Source: Gemmatimonas sp. (GTDB lineage Bacteria > Gemmatimonadota > Gemmatimonadetes > Gemmatimonadales > Gemmatimonadaceae). From it: a DNA stretch of 64,000 nucleotides. Below the pieces are notes generated by a model. The model ran no database searches. It was given only the letters and a program-made list of their open reading frames with translations, and was not told the DNA's origin. Location: positions 1 to 64,000 of the forward strand of contig NZ_JAPZSK010000002.1 in the NCBI RefSeq assembly GCF_027531815.1, read 5' to 3'. The position numbers and the translations under genes were made by a program. Of this stretch, positions 14,808 to 20,568 are shown in pieces; the first letter of the stretch is position 1, and each line of letters opens with the position of its first letter.

Positions 14808-15686
14808 GTGCTGCCGCTCCGTCGCGCCGAGGAGCTCATTGCGACCCTGCCGGGGGTCATTTCCGTGCGTATCGTGCCTGGCGAGTCGGGTGCTGTGGAG
14901 GAGATCCACGTGCTGACCACCGATCAGGTGCCGCCGAAGAACACGGTGCGCAACATCGAGAGCGCACTGATGGCGCAGTTGGGGCTGCGGGTGAACCACC
15001 GCAAGGTGTCGGTGGCGACCACGCTCGATGCACCGCGGGCCATGGACGCGGCGCCGGAGCCTTCGGCGGTTGCGGGGTTGAGCGCCATTCCCGGCGGCGC
15101 GCCGGCGGCGGCCACCCCCCCCGCGCCCATGCCGTTCGTGGCTGGAAGCCCCACCCCAGGCGGGTCGGCTGCCGCGGGAACGCCGGCGCCACCGCCGGAT
15201 TTCGTCCCTGTCGAATTCGCGTCCGGTACCTTTGGGCGGGCTCGATCGTCCCTAGGGGTGGCGGCGGCTCCCGACCTGTCGGCTGGTCGTCGGCTGCTGA
15301 TCTTCGAGGATGTCGAGGTGCGGCGTTCGCGTTCGCGCGGGGTGCTGTGTCGAGTGACGTTGTCGCGGGACGGGCAGGAGTACTTCGGTGAGGCCGAGGG
15401 GCAGGATTCTGAGCGATCGCGCATCGAGTTGGCGGCGCGCGCGACGTTGCTGGCCATCGGCACGGCGATGAAGTCCACGGCGGGCGGCGAACGGAGTCTG
15501 TCGCTGGAGGGCGCCAAGTTCATCGACGCCTTCGATCGTGAGTTCGTGTTCGTGAGCGTGTCGGCGCGCGTCGGTCGCGAGCCGGTCTGTCTCACGGGTA
15601 GCTGCGAGATCCGGGAGAGCGCGGAAACGAGTGCGGTGTTGAGCGTACTCGACGCGACCAACCGGTGGGTGCACCTCGATCGGTAG
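14808..15686 (+). CDS. Conserved-looking two-domain protein of unknown function
   Basis: Unrecognised, 292 aa from GTG 14808; the frame stays open upstream (about 35 more plausible residues, SIPVNFGISTPSAAPG), so the true start may be an earlier non-ATG codon. Residues 1-72 form a small alpha/beta module (LPGVISVRIVPGESGAVEEI and NTVRNIESALMAQLGLRV) resembling ACT-like or ferredoxin-like folds. A Pro/Ala-rich linker (about 75-135) leads to a second alpha/beta domain (LIFEDVEVRRSRSRGVLCRV to about 235) that continues to the end. No catalytic motif or signal peptide is seen. It lies 200 bp after the sigma54 activator on the same strand. Confidence 0.8.
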   Translation: MLPLRRAEELIATLPGVISVRIVPGESGAVEEIHVLTTDQVPPKNTVRNIESALMAQLGLRVNHRKVSVATTLDAPRAMDAAPEPSAVAGLSAIPGGAPAAATPPAPMPFVAGSPTPGGSAAAGTPAPPPDFVPVEFASGTFGRARSSLGVAAAPDLSAGRRLLIFEDVEVRRSRSRGVLCRVTLSRDGQEYFGEAEGQDSERSRIELAARATLLAIGTAMKSTAGGERSLSLEGAKFIDAFDREFVFVSVSARVGREPVCLTGSCEIRESAETSAVLSVLDATNRWVHLDR

Positions 15687-15878
15687 AGCGCGGACGCACG
15701 CGTTCACACACATAACCCTCATTCGTCATCGACACGACGACATCACAAACGTCCCCGTCAGCCGTCTAGAGCGGAGCTGAGCGGGCAGGCCAAGCGGTAG
15801 GAGCGGAGCCAACTTTGATCGAGCACGTGCGGTCCCGAGCGGGGCACACGTGACTGACCCGAAGGGAGGTGACGTTCG
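15687..15878 (+). ncRNA. Structured leader upstream of a micropeptide gene
   Basis: Nearly 200 bp with no larger gene. It includes CACGTG at 15824-15829 and again at 15847-15852, able to pair and enclose a C-rich/G-rich inner stem, plus several AGCGGAGC-like repeats (around 15770-15810). I could not match it to a known riboswitch, including the c-di-GMP classes, despite the c-di-GMP-related gene downstream. Whether it is an RNA element is inference. Confidence 0.35.
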
Positions 15879-15950
15879 ATGGAATTCATGGCCCAGCTCG
15901 TGAATGCGGTCCTGGCGATCTTCTTCGCCGACATGAAGACGTGGGGCTGA
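15879..15950 (+). CDS. Candidate 23-residue hydrophobic micropeptide
   Basis: ATG 15879 is preceded by an excellent ribosome site (GGGAGGTGA, about 15864-15872, 6-7 nt spacing), far better than most large genes here. The peptide begins MEFMAQLVNAVL, continues with a hydrophobic AIFFA and ends DMKTWG, then TGA at 15948-15950. One amphipathic or membrane-seeking helix followed by a charged tail is predicted. It lies 32 nt upstream of the HD-GYP gene and a hairpin overlaps its stop. It might be a signalling peptide, a small membrane regulator of the HD-GYP protein, or a leader peptide controlling it. No homologue is known to me. Confidence 0.5.
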   Translation: MEFMAQLVNAVLAIFFADMKTWG

Positions 15951-15979
15951 TTTAATCAGCCGGCTGGCGGGACATTTTT
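15946..15979 (+). terminator. Hairpin(s) and T-tract between micropeptide and HD-GYP gene
   Basis: GCTGAT-TTA-ATCAGC (15946-15960) begins in the micropeptide stop region, overlaps the palindrome CAGCCGGCTG (15958-15967), and is followed by TTTTT (15975-15979) just before ATG 15983. The two stems are mutually exclusive. This could be an attenuator between peptide and phosphodiesterase genes; the stems are short, so termination would be partial. Confidence 0.4.
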
Positions 15980-15982
15980 CTC

Positions 15983-17311
15983 ATGAAGACAAGCGTAATC
16001 GCCTACGTTTACTCGATCGTTGTCGCCGCGGCGGCAGCGCTTGTCTTGTCGTATTGGTACGATCCGAGTTTTGCCATCGCACTATTTGCTGTCCCAGGAT
16101 TGCTTGCGTTCGTCGCCTTTTTCGGTGCGATCTCTAGCTACAGGATTCAGGGTAGCACTTTTGGTGAAATCTCATTCATCCCGTACTTGACGGCGGTTGT
16201 CCTTTATCCGTCATGGTCGACTCTAGGCGCAATCGGCGTTGGTGCGTTACTAGCTGAGGTTGCGAAGCCCAAGACGGGTATCAAACGGGCGTTCAATGTA
16301 GCCCAGACAGTTCTTGCCGGCGCCGCTGCCCTTTTCGCGTATGTACTGCTCGGCGGCGTAGCCTTGCAGGTCGAAAAGGCGTTTCAGCCGCTTCCTCATT
16401 CCGCAGCAGTGGTCTCATTCCTGCTCGTCAACACCTTCGCGGTCGCGACTGCGATTGGTCTTGCTGAAGGCAAGAGTATCGTAAAGACGTGGGCAAAGGG
16501 AAACGTTGCGGGGCTAGCTTACGACGTGGTTGCCGTACTCGCTGTCTACGCATTTGCACGTGCCGCCGTCGATTGGGGCCTTTGGGGTATCTTGGGCTTC
16601 TGTGCAATCCTGGTGGTGCTACGATTTACCTACCAGTCGAAGCACCAGCTTGAGACTACCAACAAGGAACTGCTGGAGCTCTTCGTCCACACCGTCGAAT
16701 TTCGGGACCCTTACACCTCGGGTCATTCACAGCGGGTGCGTCGATTCTCGCGGATCATTGCGCAGGTGATCGGCCTTTCACCAAAGGAAGTCGAACAGGT
16801 ATCCAAGGCTGCACTCCTCCACGATGTTGGCAAGATTCACGAGATCTTCGCGCCAGTCCTCATGAAGCCAGGACGGCTTACTCCGGAAGAACGAGCCATC
16901 ATGGAACTGCACCCAATCAAGAGTGCTGAACTCGTGGCAAAGATCTCCGAGCTCCAGGACATTGTGCCCGCCGTTCGCCACCATCATGAGAACTGGGACG
17001 GTACGGGATATCCGGACCGACTGCAGGGCAAGGAAATTCCGCTCGCGTCTCGAATCATCATGTTCGCAGACACGATCGATGCCATGACAACCGACCGGCC
17101 ATACCGCAAAGCGCTCGGCGAAGCGGATGTGCGAGCCGAGCTTGTGAATTTCAGGGGAAGGCAATTCGACCCGGATATTTGCGACGCCCTCCTCGGTTCA
17201 GATAAGTTCTCGCGTATCTTCGATAAGAATGATGATGGCGGTGTCTATTCGCTAACTCAGATGTTCGATTCCATCCGTAGGCGCCGCCCCAAGACGCCGG
17301 CCGTCGCTTAG
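15983..17311 (+). CDS. Membrane-bound HD-GYP phosphodiesterase
   Basis: A 442-aa protein. The N-terminal 215 residues contain about six membrane helices (for example AYVYSIVVAAAAALVLSYWY, FAIALFAVPGLLAFVAFFGA) and resemble MASE-type sensor domains of the MASE9 kind. The C-terminal domain has the HD pair H280-D281 in LLHDVGKIH, the HHHENWDGTGYP segment with G342-Y343-P344, and ADTIDAMTTDRPYR. HD-GYP enzymes hydrolyse c-di-GMP or related dinucleotides. The gene is markedly lower in GC (near 50-55%) than its surroundings and it follows a micropeptide gene. Its stop overlaps the stop of the convergent regulator (TTAG). Confidence 0.93.
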   Translation: MKTSVIAYVYSIVVAAAAALVLSYWYDPSFAIALFAVPGLLAFVAFFGAISSYRIQGSTFGEISFIPYLTAVVLYPSWSTLGAIGVGALLAEVAKPKTGIKRAFNVAQTVLAGAAALFAYVLLGGVALQVEKAFQPLPHSAAVVSFLLVNTFAVATAIGLAEGKSIVKTWAKGNVAGLAYDVVAVLAVYAFARAAVDWGLWGILGFCAILVVLRFTYQSKHQLETTNKELLELFVHTVEFRDPYTSGHSQRVRRFSRIIAQVIGLSPKEVEQVSKAALLHDVGKIHEIFAPVLMKPGRLTPEERAIMELHPIKSAELVAKISELQDIVPAVRHHHENWDGTGYPDRLQGKEIPLASRIIMFADTIDAMTTDRPYRKALGEADVRAELVNFRGRQFDPDICDALLGSDKFSRIFDKNDDGGVYSLTQMFDSIRRRRPKTPAVA

Positions 17312-20300
17312 CGACCTGTCCTCGCAAGCTTAAGCTTGTGGAGTACGGGTCGGAGGAACGCATTTGGAGCTGAACGTTCTCTCCGCGTCTTTTGCATGTA
17401 TTCACCGAGAATGCTCGCTGCATCTTCGTGGCGATTCAGTCTGATCAGCGACTCTCCGATTCTCGACGCCAGGAAGTCAGAGGCGCAGTACCCAGCCGAC
17501 TGAAAGAAGCGAGAAACTGCGGTCGTAACTTGTGCTGAACTTGGACGCCACTTCCTGTCAATCAGCCCTACGCCAAGCTCCAGGCCTGCGGAATATGCCA
17601 ATGTCCGTAGTGGGCGAGTGCGCGAGAGCGTTTGCATTACCCTTTCGCACTGCAGCGCGGCCTCCTCGCGATCCTCTTCCGCGATAGCCATGAGACACAG
17701 ATGCGCGTGGATGTAGTTGTTCGCGGCATCGTCAGCGTTCGCTTCGCCGAGCCGGCGGAGCTCTGTCGTCCAGCGCTTAGCACCCTGTACATCACCAGTC
17801 TCGAGCGCCAACTGCGCCAACTGCCAGATTGGATACTCTGCCAAGCGAGGTGAGCCTATCTCCAAGGCGACCTCTCTCGCGCGATGCAGTGCGCTAACGG
17901 CCGCATTTGTATTTCCAATGATGCGGTAGACAAAACCAGCTCTTCCGCATTCGACGACGCGTTGCGCCGTGGACCGGGAATCGCTGTTTCTCCGGATAAG
18001 CTCGTCGGCAATGCCTACTGCGATGTCGACGGATCCGAATACGGTATGGTAGGTAAGCCCTAGCTTCTGCGTCTTTTCACTAGATCGGACATAATCGTCT
18101 GACAACTGAAGGCCAAGGTAGCAGTCTTCTGCCACCTTAGGATCGCACGTGTTAGATGCAATCAAGAGGCCGACATCGGCAGCGCGAATACGATAATCGA
18201 GTGACGTAGACTGGCTCTTGGCTACGTTCGCCGCAAAATCAGAAAGCGTGCGAGGGTCGGTCGTCGGTGACGAACGGTATGCTGCCTCCGCGAACGAGAG
18301 GCATAAGTCCAGTTCAGTCTCCGGCAATGAATCGATATCGGCAGGTAGTCGCAGCCCCTTGGGGAGCAAAGAGAGGGCACGACTGGATGCTCCATTCTGC
18401 GACTCTTGGTTCACCTGAAGCCGCGCAATGCGCTGCTCGGTACGAGTCTTGGGCACCTCCTCATGGAGTATCTCTATCGCTCCGAGCACCGTTGAAGGTC
18501 GATCACCCTTAATCAATGCCTCGTCGTGGTTGACGAAGAAGCGGTATAGAACCTCTGGGCGTCCGCTCATTGACGTATGGGTGAGTGCCTCAAGAAGTAC
18601 GGTAAGGTCCGCGCTTCTCGAGTACTCCGATTCAAGCGCGTCTGCGATAGACGCACGTAGCGCTGCTTCCACCAGCGGCGACATACGTCGAAGGGACACC
18701 TGGCGAACCATGTCGTGTGTAATCACGACGGAGGCTAGACCCGTCATCAAGCACCCAGAAAGCTCAAGCTGCTCGATCGAGTGTATGAGCTCATGTACTG
18801 GAAGCTCAAGAACAAGCTTGATGCGTTCGAGTGTCGCGAGAGAGGCTAGTAGGCAGACTGTGTGGAGTGTATGCTGCGCGCGCGCATCTAATCGATCGAT
18901 CCTCTGATCCAACAGTGCGCTCAGTGACGGTGGGACACCACCCGATGTTCCGGTTACGTGCCAGTGCTCAAGAAGCGCCCGCAACATCAGCGGATTCCCC
19001 TCGCACCCGCGGATGATCCACCGCTCCACTTCCTCCGGCACCGATACGCCATGTTCGTCCGCCGCGCCGCGCACCAGCGACAGGAGCGCGTCTTCCGCCA
19101 ACGGCAGCAGGCGACGGTAGGTGAGAGGCGTCGGCAAGCGCGCCGGTCGCTCTTCGCGAATCGTCGCGAAACGCGAGGTCAGCACGATGTACACCCGCAT
19201 CTCGTTCACCCGCTGGATCACGTCCGCCAGCACCTCCCACGACGCGTCGTCCAGCCAGTTCACATCCTCCGCCAGCAGGAAGATCGGCCGCTCTTCCGAC
19301 ACCGCAGCAAACAGATCCACCACCGCGTGACGGATCGACTGCGCCCGCATCGTACGAATCGCCAACTCCACCCGCTCCGTCACCGAGAGCTCGTGGTTCG
19401 ACACGGCGTCGGCCTCCGCCGCCTCCTCCTCGCCCACAGCCATGGGGTTGGGCCCCAGCAGCTTGCGCAGCACCGTGAGGCTCTCCGGCGCGCAACCGAT
19501 GGCCCCCGGGGCACTCAACAGGTCAGGGAGCGCTTCGATCAGCGCCCCCAGCGGCCGCGTCGTAATGCTCTCCCGGCACTCCATCACCACCTCACGGTAC
19601 CCCTCCACCTGGGCCACCTTGAGGATCTCCAGCATCAGCCGAGTCTTGCCCATCCCCGGCGGACCATGCAGCAGGACGGCGCTGCCGTCGTGCCAGCGCG
19701 CGCGCCGCAGCGACATCGTGAGTTCGCTCAACTCCACGTCACGGCCGTGGAAATGCTTGTCCGTCACCAGCGCCACCGAGCGCCGACGCGCGGGCGCCTC
19801 CACGAAGCGCCGCCGCAGCAGCGTGGCCGGCAGGCGGATGTCGCCGGCGCCCGGGCCAAGCTCCTGCAGATACCGATCGAGGATGGCCACGGCCTCCGCC
19901 TTCGACCCCGACAGCGCCGCGCACTCCGCGAGCGCCAGCGTGGCATCCTCATTCAGCGGATCCAGCTGCAGCAGCCACGCGGCCACCATCTGCGTTCCCT
20001 TCCAGTCGGCGCGCTCCCGGCGCTGACGCAGGACGTCCACCAGCACCCGCCGCATCGCCCCGTGCAGCGTCTCGCGCGTTACGTCGAGCCACTCCTGCAG
20101 CGGGGCCGTCGGCGGCGTCACACCGGGCAGGAAGCTGCCATACGGTTCCGTCCCGCGCGTGACATCGCGATCGAAGCTGTCGGCGCTCGGCGCCAACGCG
20201 AAGTTCCGCTGCACCTGCGTGGTATCGAGGTGCACCACATCCCCTCGCAACGCCGTGCGTACCCCCATCGTGCGCAGCTTATACAACGCCTGCCGCAAGT

Positions 20301-20568
20301 TCCCGCGCTGACGCGACTCCTCCTGGTCGGGCCAGAACTCCCGCACCAGCGTGTCGCGCGCCACCGCCATGCCAGGGGTGTACGCCATGCGCAGCACCAG
20401 CAGGAAGAGCAACGCGTTGTGCATCCCCAGTGCCTGCTCACCCAGCAGCACGCGAGACGCCCCCAAGGTCTGCAGCTGAATGGAGACGGCGTGCAGCGCG
20501 TCCTCCTCGGTATCGGGCACGGCGCTCACGATGTCCGTCAGGTCCGGCAGGGTGGAAGGCAGTGACAT
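17308..20568 (-). CDS. Large BTAD/AAA transcriptional regulator (SARP-like), compositionally mosaic
   Basis: A 1086-aa regulator. Residues about 30-110 form an OmpR-like winged helix (LGASRVLLGEQALGMHNALL and GNLRQALYKLRTMG), followed by a BTAD-type helical domain to about 265. An AAA/NTPase domain follows, with Walker A HGPPGMGKTR (K308) and Walker B IFLLAEDVNWLDD. The C-terminal 540 residues are helical and TPR-like (YRIIGNTNAAVSALHRAREV). SARP/MalT-like STAND regulators usually sense a ligand with this part. GC content is 65-70% in the half coding residues 1 to about 535 and about 50-60% in the rest, matching the convergent HD-GYP gene. That suggests recombination inside the gene. Confidence 0.88.
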   Translation of the reverse strand: MSLPSTLPDLTDIVSAVPDTEEDALHAVSIQLQTLGASRVLLGEQALGMHNALLFLLVLRMAYTPGMAVARDTLVREFWPDQEESRQRGNLRQALYKLRTMGVRTALRGDVVHLDTTQVQRNFALAPSADSFDRDVTRGTEPYGSFLPGVTPPTAPLQEWLDVTRETLHGAMRRVLVDVLRQRRERADWKGTQMVAAWLLQLDPLNEDATLALAECAALSGSKAEAVAILDRYLQELGPGAGDIRLPATLLRRRFVEAPARRRSVALVTDKHFHGRDVELSELTMSLRRARWHDGSAVLLHGPPGMGKTRLMLEILKVAQVEGYREVVMECRESITTRPLGALIEALPDLLSAPGAIGCAPESLTVLRKLLGPNPMAVGEEEAAEADAVSNHELSVTERVELAIRTMRAQSIRHAVVDLFAAVSEERPIFLLAEDVNWLDDASWEVLADVIQRVNEMRVYIVLTSRFATIREERPARLPTPLTYRRLLPLAEDALLSLVRGAADEHGVSVPEEVERWIIRGCEGNPLMLRALLEHWHVTGTSGGVPPSLSALLDQRIDRLDARAQHTLHTVCLLASLATLERIKLVLELPVHELIHSIEQLELSGCLMTGLASVVITHDMVRQVSLRRMSPLVEAALRASIADALESEYSRSADLTVLLEALTHTSMSGRPEVLYRFFVNHDEALIKGDRPSTVLGAIEILHEEVPKTRTEQRIARLQVNQESQNGASSRALSLLPKGLRLPADIDSLPETELDLCLSFAEAAYRSSPTTDPRTLSDFAANVAKSQSTSLDYRIRAADVGLLIASNTCDPKVAEDCYLGLQLSDDYVRSSEKTQKLGLTYHTVFGSVDIAVGIADELIRRNSDSRSTAQRVVECGRAGFVYRIIGNTNAAVSALHRAREVALEIGSPRLAEYPIWQLAQLALETGDVQGAKRWTTELRRLGEANADDAANNYIHAHLCLMAIAEEDREEAALQCERVMQTLSRTRPLRTLAYSAGLELGVGLIDRKWRPSSAQVTTAVSRFFQSAGYCASDFLASRIGESLIRLNRHEDAASILGEYMQKTRRERSAPNAFLRPVLHKLKLARTGR

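Follow-up and report, generated by a model that had tools for sequence, protein, structure and literature searches.

Organization of the locus

The window, a stretch of 64,000 nt from Gemmatimonas sp., contains a short open reading frame (ORF) encoding a hydrophobic micropeptide between an uncharacterised gene, which we call protein X, and the gene of a membrane HD-GYP protein (Table 1). A strong Shine-Dalgarno (SD) core, GGGAGGTGA at 15864-15872, lies 5' of the micropeptide ATG, and 32 nt separate the micropeptide stop from the ATG of the HD-GYP gene. The SD, the start at 15879, the 23-aa hydrophobic frame and this spacing are all as first described in an earlier note on this DNA. Inspection of the ORFs of the window revealed no other plausible gene between the stop of the upstream gene (15686) and the micropeptide ORF.

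Table 1. Genes and RNA features around the micropeptide ORF, in window coordinates.
Feature	Coordinates	Strand	Sequence	Remarks
Protein X, uncharacterised	14808..15686	+		Putative GTG start, from the ORF listing
P1, 5' arm of the closing stem	15752..15764	+	TCCCCGTCAGCCG	Alignment; cognate versus permuted pairing
Conserved block	15769..15786	+	GAGCGGAGC-T-GAGCGGGC	Alignment
P3, 5' strand	15801..15813	+	GAGCGGAGCCAAC	Pairs with the SD strand; 98.7% of cells paired, nearly invariant
P4 hairpin	15822..15855	+	AGCACGTGCGGTCCCGAGCGGGGCACACGTGACT	Strong covariation
Extended SD, doubling as the P3 3' strand	15864..15875	+	GGGAGGTGACGT	SD predicted to be sequestered
Micropeptide ORF	15879..15950	+	MEFMAQLVNAVLAIFFADMKTWG	ATG 15879, 23 codons, stop TGA 15948-15950
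Stop-codon hairpin	15945..15961	+	GGCTGATTTAATCAGCC	Final base overlaps the P1 3' arm
P1, 3' arm	15961..15972	+	CGGCTGGCGGGA	Candidate ribosome-binding site of the HD-GYP gene
Membrane HD-GYP protein, 442 aa	15983..17311	+		N-terminal MASE9-type membrane domain plus HD-GYP; Pfam, AF2, Foldseek

Two further features of the region were observed. An inverted repeat, TCGTC...GACGA (15723-15740), occurs between the protein X stop and P1, also in many relatives, and might be a terminator or an operator. The G+C content drops to 0.55-0.58 between 15750 and 18750, against 0.65-0.70 around it; this stretch takes in the HD-GYP gene together with the 3' half of a convergent gene of 1086 aa (17308-20568, minus strand), and the HD-GYP gene is conserved throughout the genus despite it.

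Products of the flanking genes

The HD-GYP protein of the window matches HD_5 in Pfam (E 4e-34) and retains the conserved LLHDVGKI and GTGYP motifs, and thus has the catalytic domain expected of a MASE9-HD-GYP phosphodiesterase. The earlier description of a multi-helix HD-GYP gene is therefore correct, but its MASE9 label needs qualification: MASE9 (PF20972) has no Pfam match in the window protein, whereas 11 of 16 aligned homologs match it (best E 5.5e-11). The AF2 model (pLDDT 82) consists of a helical membrane domain, a long helix and then the HD-GYP domain. In Foldseek searches the C-terminal part matched solved HD-GYP structures, and the membrane domain came near the ECF S-components ThiT, BioY and FolT (probability 0.91-0.99, TMt 0.56-0.63, E 0.4-1.7). 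This resemblance to a substrate-binding membrane fold would suit a ligand that is a small molecule or a peptide.

Protein X lies directly 5' of the element. Members of its family in Bacillota and in the phylum of an Actinobacteria MAG, also upstream of the RNA and peptide, show the pattern ...IxEIHVL...PKQxVRDIESALMA..GI.xDHKKISIAQ...ATLDAINRR. Neither Pfam nor NCBIfam has a family for it, with a weak LeuA_dimer match (E 9e-4) in 2 of 14 sequences. Its AF2 model (pLDDT 89) comprises two domains, the C-terminal one resembling the LeuA regulatory domain in Foldseek and, weakly, double-stranded-RNA-binding domains. Protein X might serve the element as a sensor of RNA or of a ligand.

The micropeptide is conserved and under purifying selection

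A tblastn search with the 23-mer among 100 relatives detected the micropeptide in the window genome and in 24 more, of which 22 belong to the same genus and two to different genera within the family (Gemmatimonadaceae). Nearly all matches are open over their full length and follow an identical SD core, and GGGAGGTGA was identical in every same-genus genome carrying the micropeptide. Each copy adjoins the HD-GYP ortholog (62-77% identity across most of the genus) wherever the contig extends that far, and we found the micropeptide only beside HD-GYP. Frame, start and SD, whose conservation the earlier note had proposed to check, are thus kept in relatives, as is the C-terminal Trp. Neither of the outcomes that the note named as refuting, a lack of conservation or substitution at the neutral rate, was observed. 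Trp22, Ala5 and Leu7 are invariant (25/25 each), followed by Ser13 (24/25) and Asp18 (23/25).

From these 25 sequences we estimated a dN/dS of 0.34, hence not substitution at the neutral rate, with a dS of 1.04 in codons 11-23. The pN/pS ratio was 0.46-0.51 in frame versus 0.83-1.34 in the wrong frames. Synonymous divergence is low in codons 2-10, consistent with RNA pairing there (P2, see below). As judged from these comparisons, the micropeptide frame is under purifying selection.

To cover the order we took 40 further regions upstream of HD-GYP homologs, from other genera and a second family, and all 40 contained a hydrophobic micro-ORF of 14-35 codons with a strong SD, four of them assigned by eye. 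These peptides drift far in sequence, and their stop codon and length vary; most show a hydrophobic body followed by W-x-stop (MTIIADLVAAMFSGTLIWW, MGIVEWIVGVLSGLLTWN), with Trp within the last three residues in 21/21 and 42/46 Gemmatimonadales micropeptides. Three loci (L105, L106 and L100) have peptides without a C-terminal Trp, ending in ISIY, TIDT and ISQL. At another (L048, genome G003), the leader and peptide (ATGCAGTTCATGGCCCAGCTCGTGAAC...) appear tandemly duplicated upstream of the element, with an N gap between the copies.

The micropeptides have no match above cut-off among Pfam and NCBIfam profiles; NCBIfam was searched with the window peptide and five others. An AgrD cyclic lactone autoinducer was rejected, the window peptide containing no Cys and having no NCBIfam AgrD match.

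A structured RNA encloses the ORF

The micropeptide ORF lies inside a structured RNA of about 220 nt that is absent from Rfam 15. The leader had been described as gene-free and structured, and both points stand, with the correction that the conserved structured RNA also includes the ORF itself. Its closing stem, P1, encloses the entire ORF and ends just 5' of the HD-GYP start, pairing CCCCGTCARCCG upstream with YGGYTGRCGGGG between the peptide stop and the HD-GYP start. Among 69 Gemmatimonadales elements, cognate P1 arms pair at -34.1 kcal/mol versus -27.6 kcal/mol for permuted arms (z=-13.2), with massive compensatory change; the window copy has one bulged C. The 3' arm is a candidate ribosome-binding site for the HD-GYP gene because it is the sole purine-rich stretch before its start.

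Within P1, GAGCGGGC (15779-15786) could form a predicted pairing, P2, with GCCC-A-GCTC inside the ORF (15891-15899). P3 is nearly invariant, so that a pairing covering the SD is compatible with the alignment rather than proven by it. P4 shows both-sided changes in three of four counted pairs, and the covariation score of the whole structure was 0.231 versus 0.109 after shuffling (0/500). Similar hairpins, judged by eye, occur around the micropeptide stop codon in relatives. A hairpin with a T5 tract had been thought to separate the micropeptide from the HD-GYP gene; the tract (15975-15979) varies among relatives, and the conserved part is the 3' arm of the long-range stem. We therefore rejected an intrinsic terminator at this position.

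A 78-nt core model, R1, detected the RNA in 88 of 298 genomes of the phylum, 82 of them of this family, almost always once per genome; the element is essentially single copy and always at this locus where checked. Comparing by hand the HD-GYP and R1 lists, for family genomes in both, we counted 53 genomes with the RNA and a full-length HD-GYP, one with the RNA without HD-GYP (a weak match, G069) and one with HD-GYP without the RNA (G045), the remaining listed genomes having neither. At gathering thresholds Rfam had no match in the window or 16 related loci, one tRNA excepted, and at E<=10 only chance-level matches in the element. The c-di-GMP riboswitches and other Rfam classes were consequently rejected for lack of a covariance-model match, as was tmRNA, with 0 genes predicted by ARAGORN in five element loci.

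The block 5' of the ORF (GAGCGGAGC..GAGCGGGC..GAGCGGAGCCAACC..hairpin..GTGACT..GGGAGGTGACGC) is better conserved than the peptide. Together with the strong covariation, this would fit a riboswitch-like regulatory RNA whose small ORF is incidental or just a placeholder. We regard this as very unlikely in view of the coding selection and its wrong-frame control, the conservation of a hydrophobic ORF in three phyla, the existence of loci without the RNA (see below) and the absence of Rfam matches.

The same RNA features would serve a leader peptide or attenuator, with a functionless peptide whose translation, or stalling near the C-terminal Trp or stop, opens P1 and switches on HD-GYP translation. 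The conserved RNA around the ORF has a closing stem that reaches almost to the HD-GYP start, the SD is in P3, a near-invariant Trp stands beside the stop, and codons 2-10, overlapped by P2, show the low synonymous divergence noted above. Against this, stop codon and peptide length vary freely, and a class of loci described below departs from this layout.

The arrangement recurs in other phyla

Among HD-GYP relatives in named metagenome-assembled genome (MAG) contigs, we found this layout in Actinobacteria and in Firmicutes; our phylum labels, Bacillota and the phylum of G329 (an Actinobacteria MAG; hereafter the second phylum), follow the named records. A micropeptide was found upstream of the MASE9-type HD-GYP gene in 28 of 29 loci scanned in Bacillota (MKNIVKAILALVALVLAGGGTFWW, MAKLFKVLTALTALLLAGGASWRW) and in most of 29 loci of the second phylum (MKRIAFLLASLAALVLGGGAFTKM). 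In both, the peptides follow the pattern LALxALVLAGGAxxRW and are preceded by a member of the protein X family. A strict scan, which required an SD, a hydrophobic peptide and a Trp among its last four residues, was positive in 22/28, 9/28 and 26/38 loci of three sets; the regions preceding other HD-GYP genes gave 0/53 and shifted windows 0/54. Some MASE9-type HD-GYP genes have no detectable peptide, for instance those of a Thermus (L189) and an Acidobacteria (L219) locus.

P1 also occurs in both phyla with unrelated sequences, such as GGCCGACAGATTTGAGGGG / CTTTTCAAATCTGTCGGCC, with permutation z values of -9.4 and -9.9. The RNAs of the two phyla share a AGCGGAGCGG block and a hairpin containing TAGCGG, which echo GAGCGGAGC and CGAGCGG of Gemmatimonadota. 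RNAalifold found no structure in the Bacillota alignment, and the model built from it, R2, is therefore sequence-only; in 250 Bacillota genomes it gave 22 matches at E<=1e-4, of which 21, judged by coordinates and neighbours, are flanked by protein X on one side and the HD-GYP start on the other; the contig of the 22nd ends first. Since R1 does not find these RNAs, RNA homology between phyla rests on the AGCGGAGC/(T/G)AGCGG blocks, the layout and the flanking genes.

The peptides of Bacillota and the second phylum have a positive N-terminus (mean +1.9 to +2.3) and an aromatic C-terminus, as for a short transmembrane helix or a signal-peptide-like precursor ending in LAGGA-xxRW. In the second phylum, Trp falls within the last three residues of just 9 of the 21 RNA-type peptides. 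The N-terminus of Gemmatimonadota peptides is neutral or acidic, without the Lys/Arg of the other groups, and peptide localisation may therefore differ.

The mRNA of hok folds back over a long range and sequesters its SD. A type I toxin-like peptide with such a folded mRNA would agree with the peptide's size and hydrophobicity, the SD inside the fold and the resemblance of P1 to the hok fold-back. Toxin modules, however, are usually mobile and multicopy, whereas the element is essentially single copy, co-occurs with HD-GYP and in all three phyla occupies one fixed position, after protein X and before HD-GYP; we give this explanation only a slight chance.

Tandem peptide genes without the RNA

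In one class of the second phylum (type B loci), every locus with enough upstream sequence encodes peptides of the ...GSLVGICSTVRW / GSLxGIxxTVRW type. These loci carry one to three tandem peptide genes, about half having two or three copies; the RNA is missing, with no detectable P1 (z=-1.3), and most have a promoter-like extended -10 (TGnTATAAT) near the HD-GYP start. Three diverged copies at locus L330, in one genome, differ by 15 nt (13 at third and 0 at second codon positions), 11 nt (10 and 0) and 12 nt (9 and 0), and those at L341 show the same third-position trend with fewer changes. This pattern shows protein-level selection on repeated peptide genes, which are unlikely to be leaders. 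In four loci (L258, L262, L263 and L265), an HTH/excisionase-like gene (...LKGFKIREGRSSWRI...) lies 5' of the peptide copies, in some with a small membrane ORF next.

Type B loci thus speak against the leader or attenuator reading, in that P1 is missing and HD-GYP mostly has its own -10-like box, yet one to three peptide genes with mainly synonymous divergence are kept. The layout of an attenuator, an ORF in cis on one switchable transcript, is compatible with RNA-type loci and is not found in type B loci. The leader reading is weakened and we consider it unlikely, although it may hold in the lineage of the window, where the embedding RNA fits a regulatory leader equally well. The tandem RNA-free copies, the -10 before HD-GYP and the third-position divergence indicate that the peptide is probably a functional product, which we rank above a leader mainly because of the selection on the repeated type B genes.

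A conserved membrane peptide might instead partner protein X, or another protein, and not HD-GYP, since RNA-type loci link protein X to the RNA as tightly as HD-GYP. This appears highly improbable: the RNA-free loci inspected closely keep peptide genes and HD-GYP adjacent, whereas their upstream genes differ (an HTH-type gene, a small membrane ORF).

A putative peptide partner of HD-GYP

The earlier note had suggested a dedicated pair of peptide and HD-GYP enzyme, and the conserved frame, SD, start and Trp, the purifying selection and the recurrence in three phyla strongly support it. We favour, with reasonable though not high confidence, the reading that the ORF is a real gene whose hydrophobic, membrane-type peptide is a dedicated ligand or pheromone, or a small subunit, of the MASE9-type HD-GYP protein, tuning c-di-GMP hydrolysis. 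Because the pairing recurs in three bacterial phyla, the peptide is probably a dedicated, so far undescribed partner of the enzyme. In the lineage of the window, expression of peptide and enzyme is probably coupled through the RNA, because the SD can pair with the P3 5' strand and P1 brackets the ORF and covers the HD-GYP start region.

According to the mechanism that we propose, the leader would fold and P3 would limit access to the SD; the peptide would be translated from the structured RNA, and ribosomes finishing near its stop would loosen P1, aiding initiation at HD-GYP. Peptide and enzyme would then meet in the membrane. We infer this contact, binding to the MASE9-type domain, the direction of its effect, the switching role of P3 and P1, the sign of the regulation and any sensing of a ligand by the RNA. 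More tentatively, and at slightly less than even confidence, we suggest an ancient micropeptide system in at least three phyla, in which a genetically encoded peptide of 20-25 residues serves a MASE9-type membrane HD-GYP enzyme as its dedicated ligand or subunit and so sets the breakdown of c-di-GMP, and in which a new RNA class, its closing stem enclosing the ORF, controls the ratio of peptide to enzyme.

Comparison with known systems

The inputs of membrane c-di-GMP enzymes are largely unknown, and a 2022 census counts MASE-type domains with the sensors that have no known purpose; by word search, it names no micropeptide partner (PMC8846402). A micropeptide fixed beside a MASE9-type enzyme in three phyla would be a directly testable input, and peptide control of c-di-GMP hydrolysis would become testable in cultured Gemmatimonas and Bacillota. 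Three groups that Rfam, Pfam and NCBIfam lack also came to light: a class of RNA, a family of micropeptides and the protein X family. The probable cause of their absence is that annotation passes over ORFs of 14-35 codons.

The locus resembles the pheromone pairs AgrD-AgrC, SHP-Rgg, PapR-PlcR and ComS-ComR in having a tiny hydrophobic peptide gene fixed beside a candidate sensor gene, a conserved C-terminal motif (W-x or RW) and, in some species, tandem copies. It differs from them in that the candidate sensor is a c-di-GMP phosphodiesterase, with no AgrB, Cys thiolactone motif or Rgg, and in that a structured RNA surrounds the peptide ORF in three phyla. What links the locus to such pairs is genomic pairing and C-terminal conservation. 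With the TnaC, SpeFL and Erm leaders it shares a short ORF with a strong SD in a folded leader before a regulated gene, and a Trp near the stop; unlike in these, the closing stem encloses the entire ORF, and the peptide persists in RNA-free tandem, where a promoter-like box usually precedes HD-GYP.

Downstream-peptide RNA, a relative of the glutamine riboswitch, is a structured RNA tied to short ORFs of unknown family (PMC2864571). That RNA precedes its ORF, whereas the RNA described here encloses the ORF, continues to a second gene and has no Rfam match. KdpF, AcrZ, CydX and MgtS are likewise single-helix peptides of 20-40 aa beside a membrane protein that they may modulate, without the RNA encasement seen here; we know of no small regulatory membrane protein for an HD-GYP enzyme. 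MASE9-HD-GYP phosphodiesterases themselves provide the adjacent enzyme type (PF20972 and HD_5 in homologs), with no micropeptide described in the papers found, and among open-licence papers we found none describing this pair, whether they dealt with MASE9 or linked HD-GYP to a leader peptide, a pheromone or an RNA motif. We rate the arrangement as new because it falls outside Rfam, tmRNA, AgrD, Pfam and NCBIfam and because the open-licence papers found describe no such pair. Its mechanism may prove a variation on leader-peptide control, on peptide pheromones or on regulation by a small subunit.
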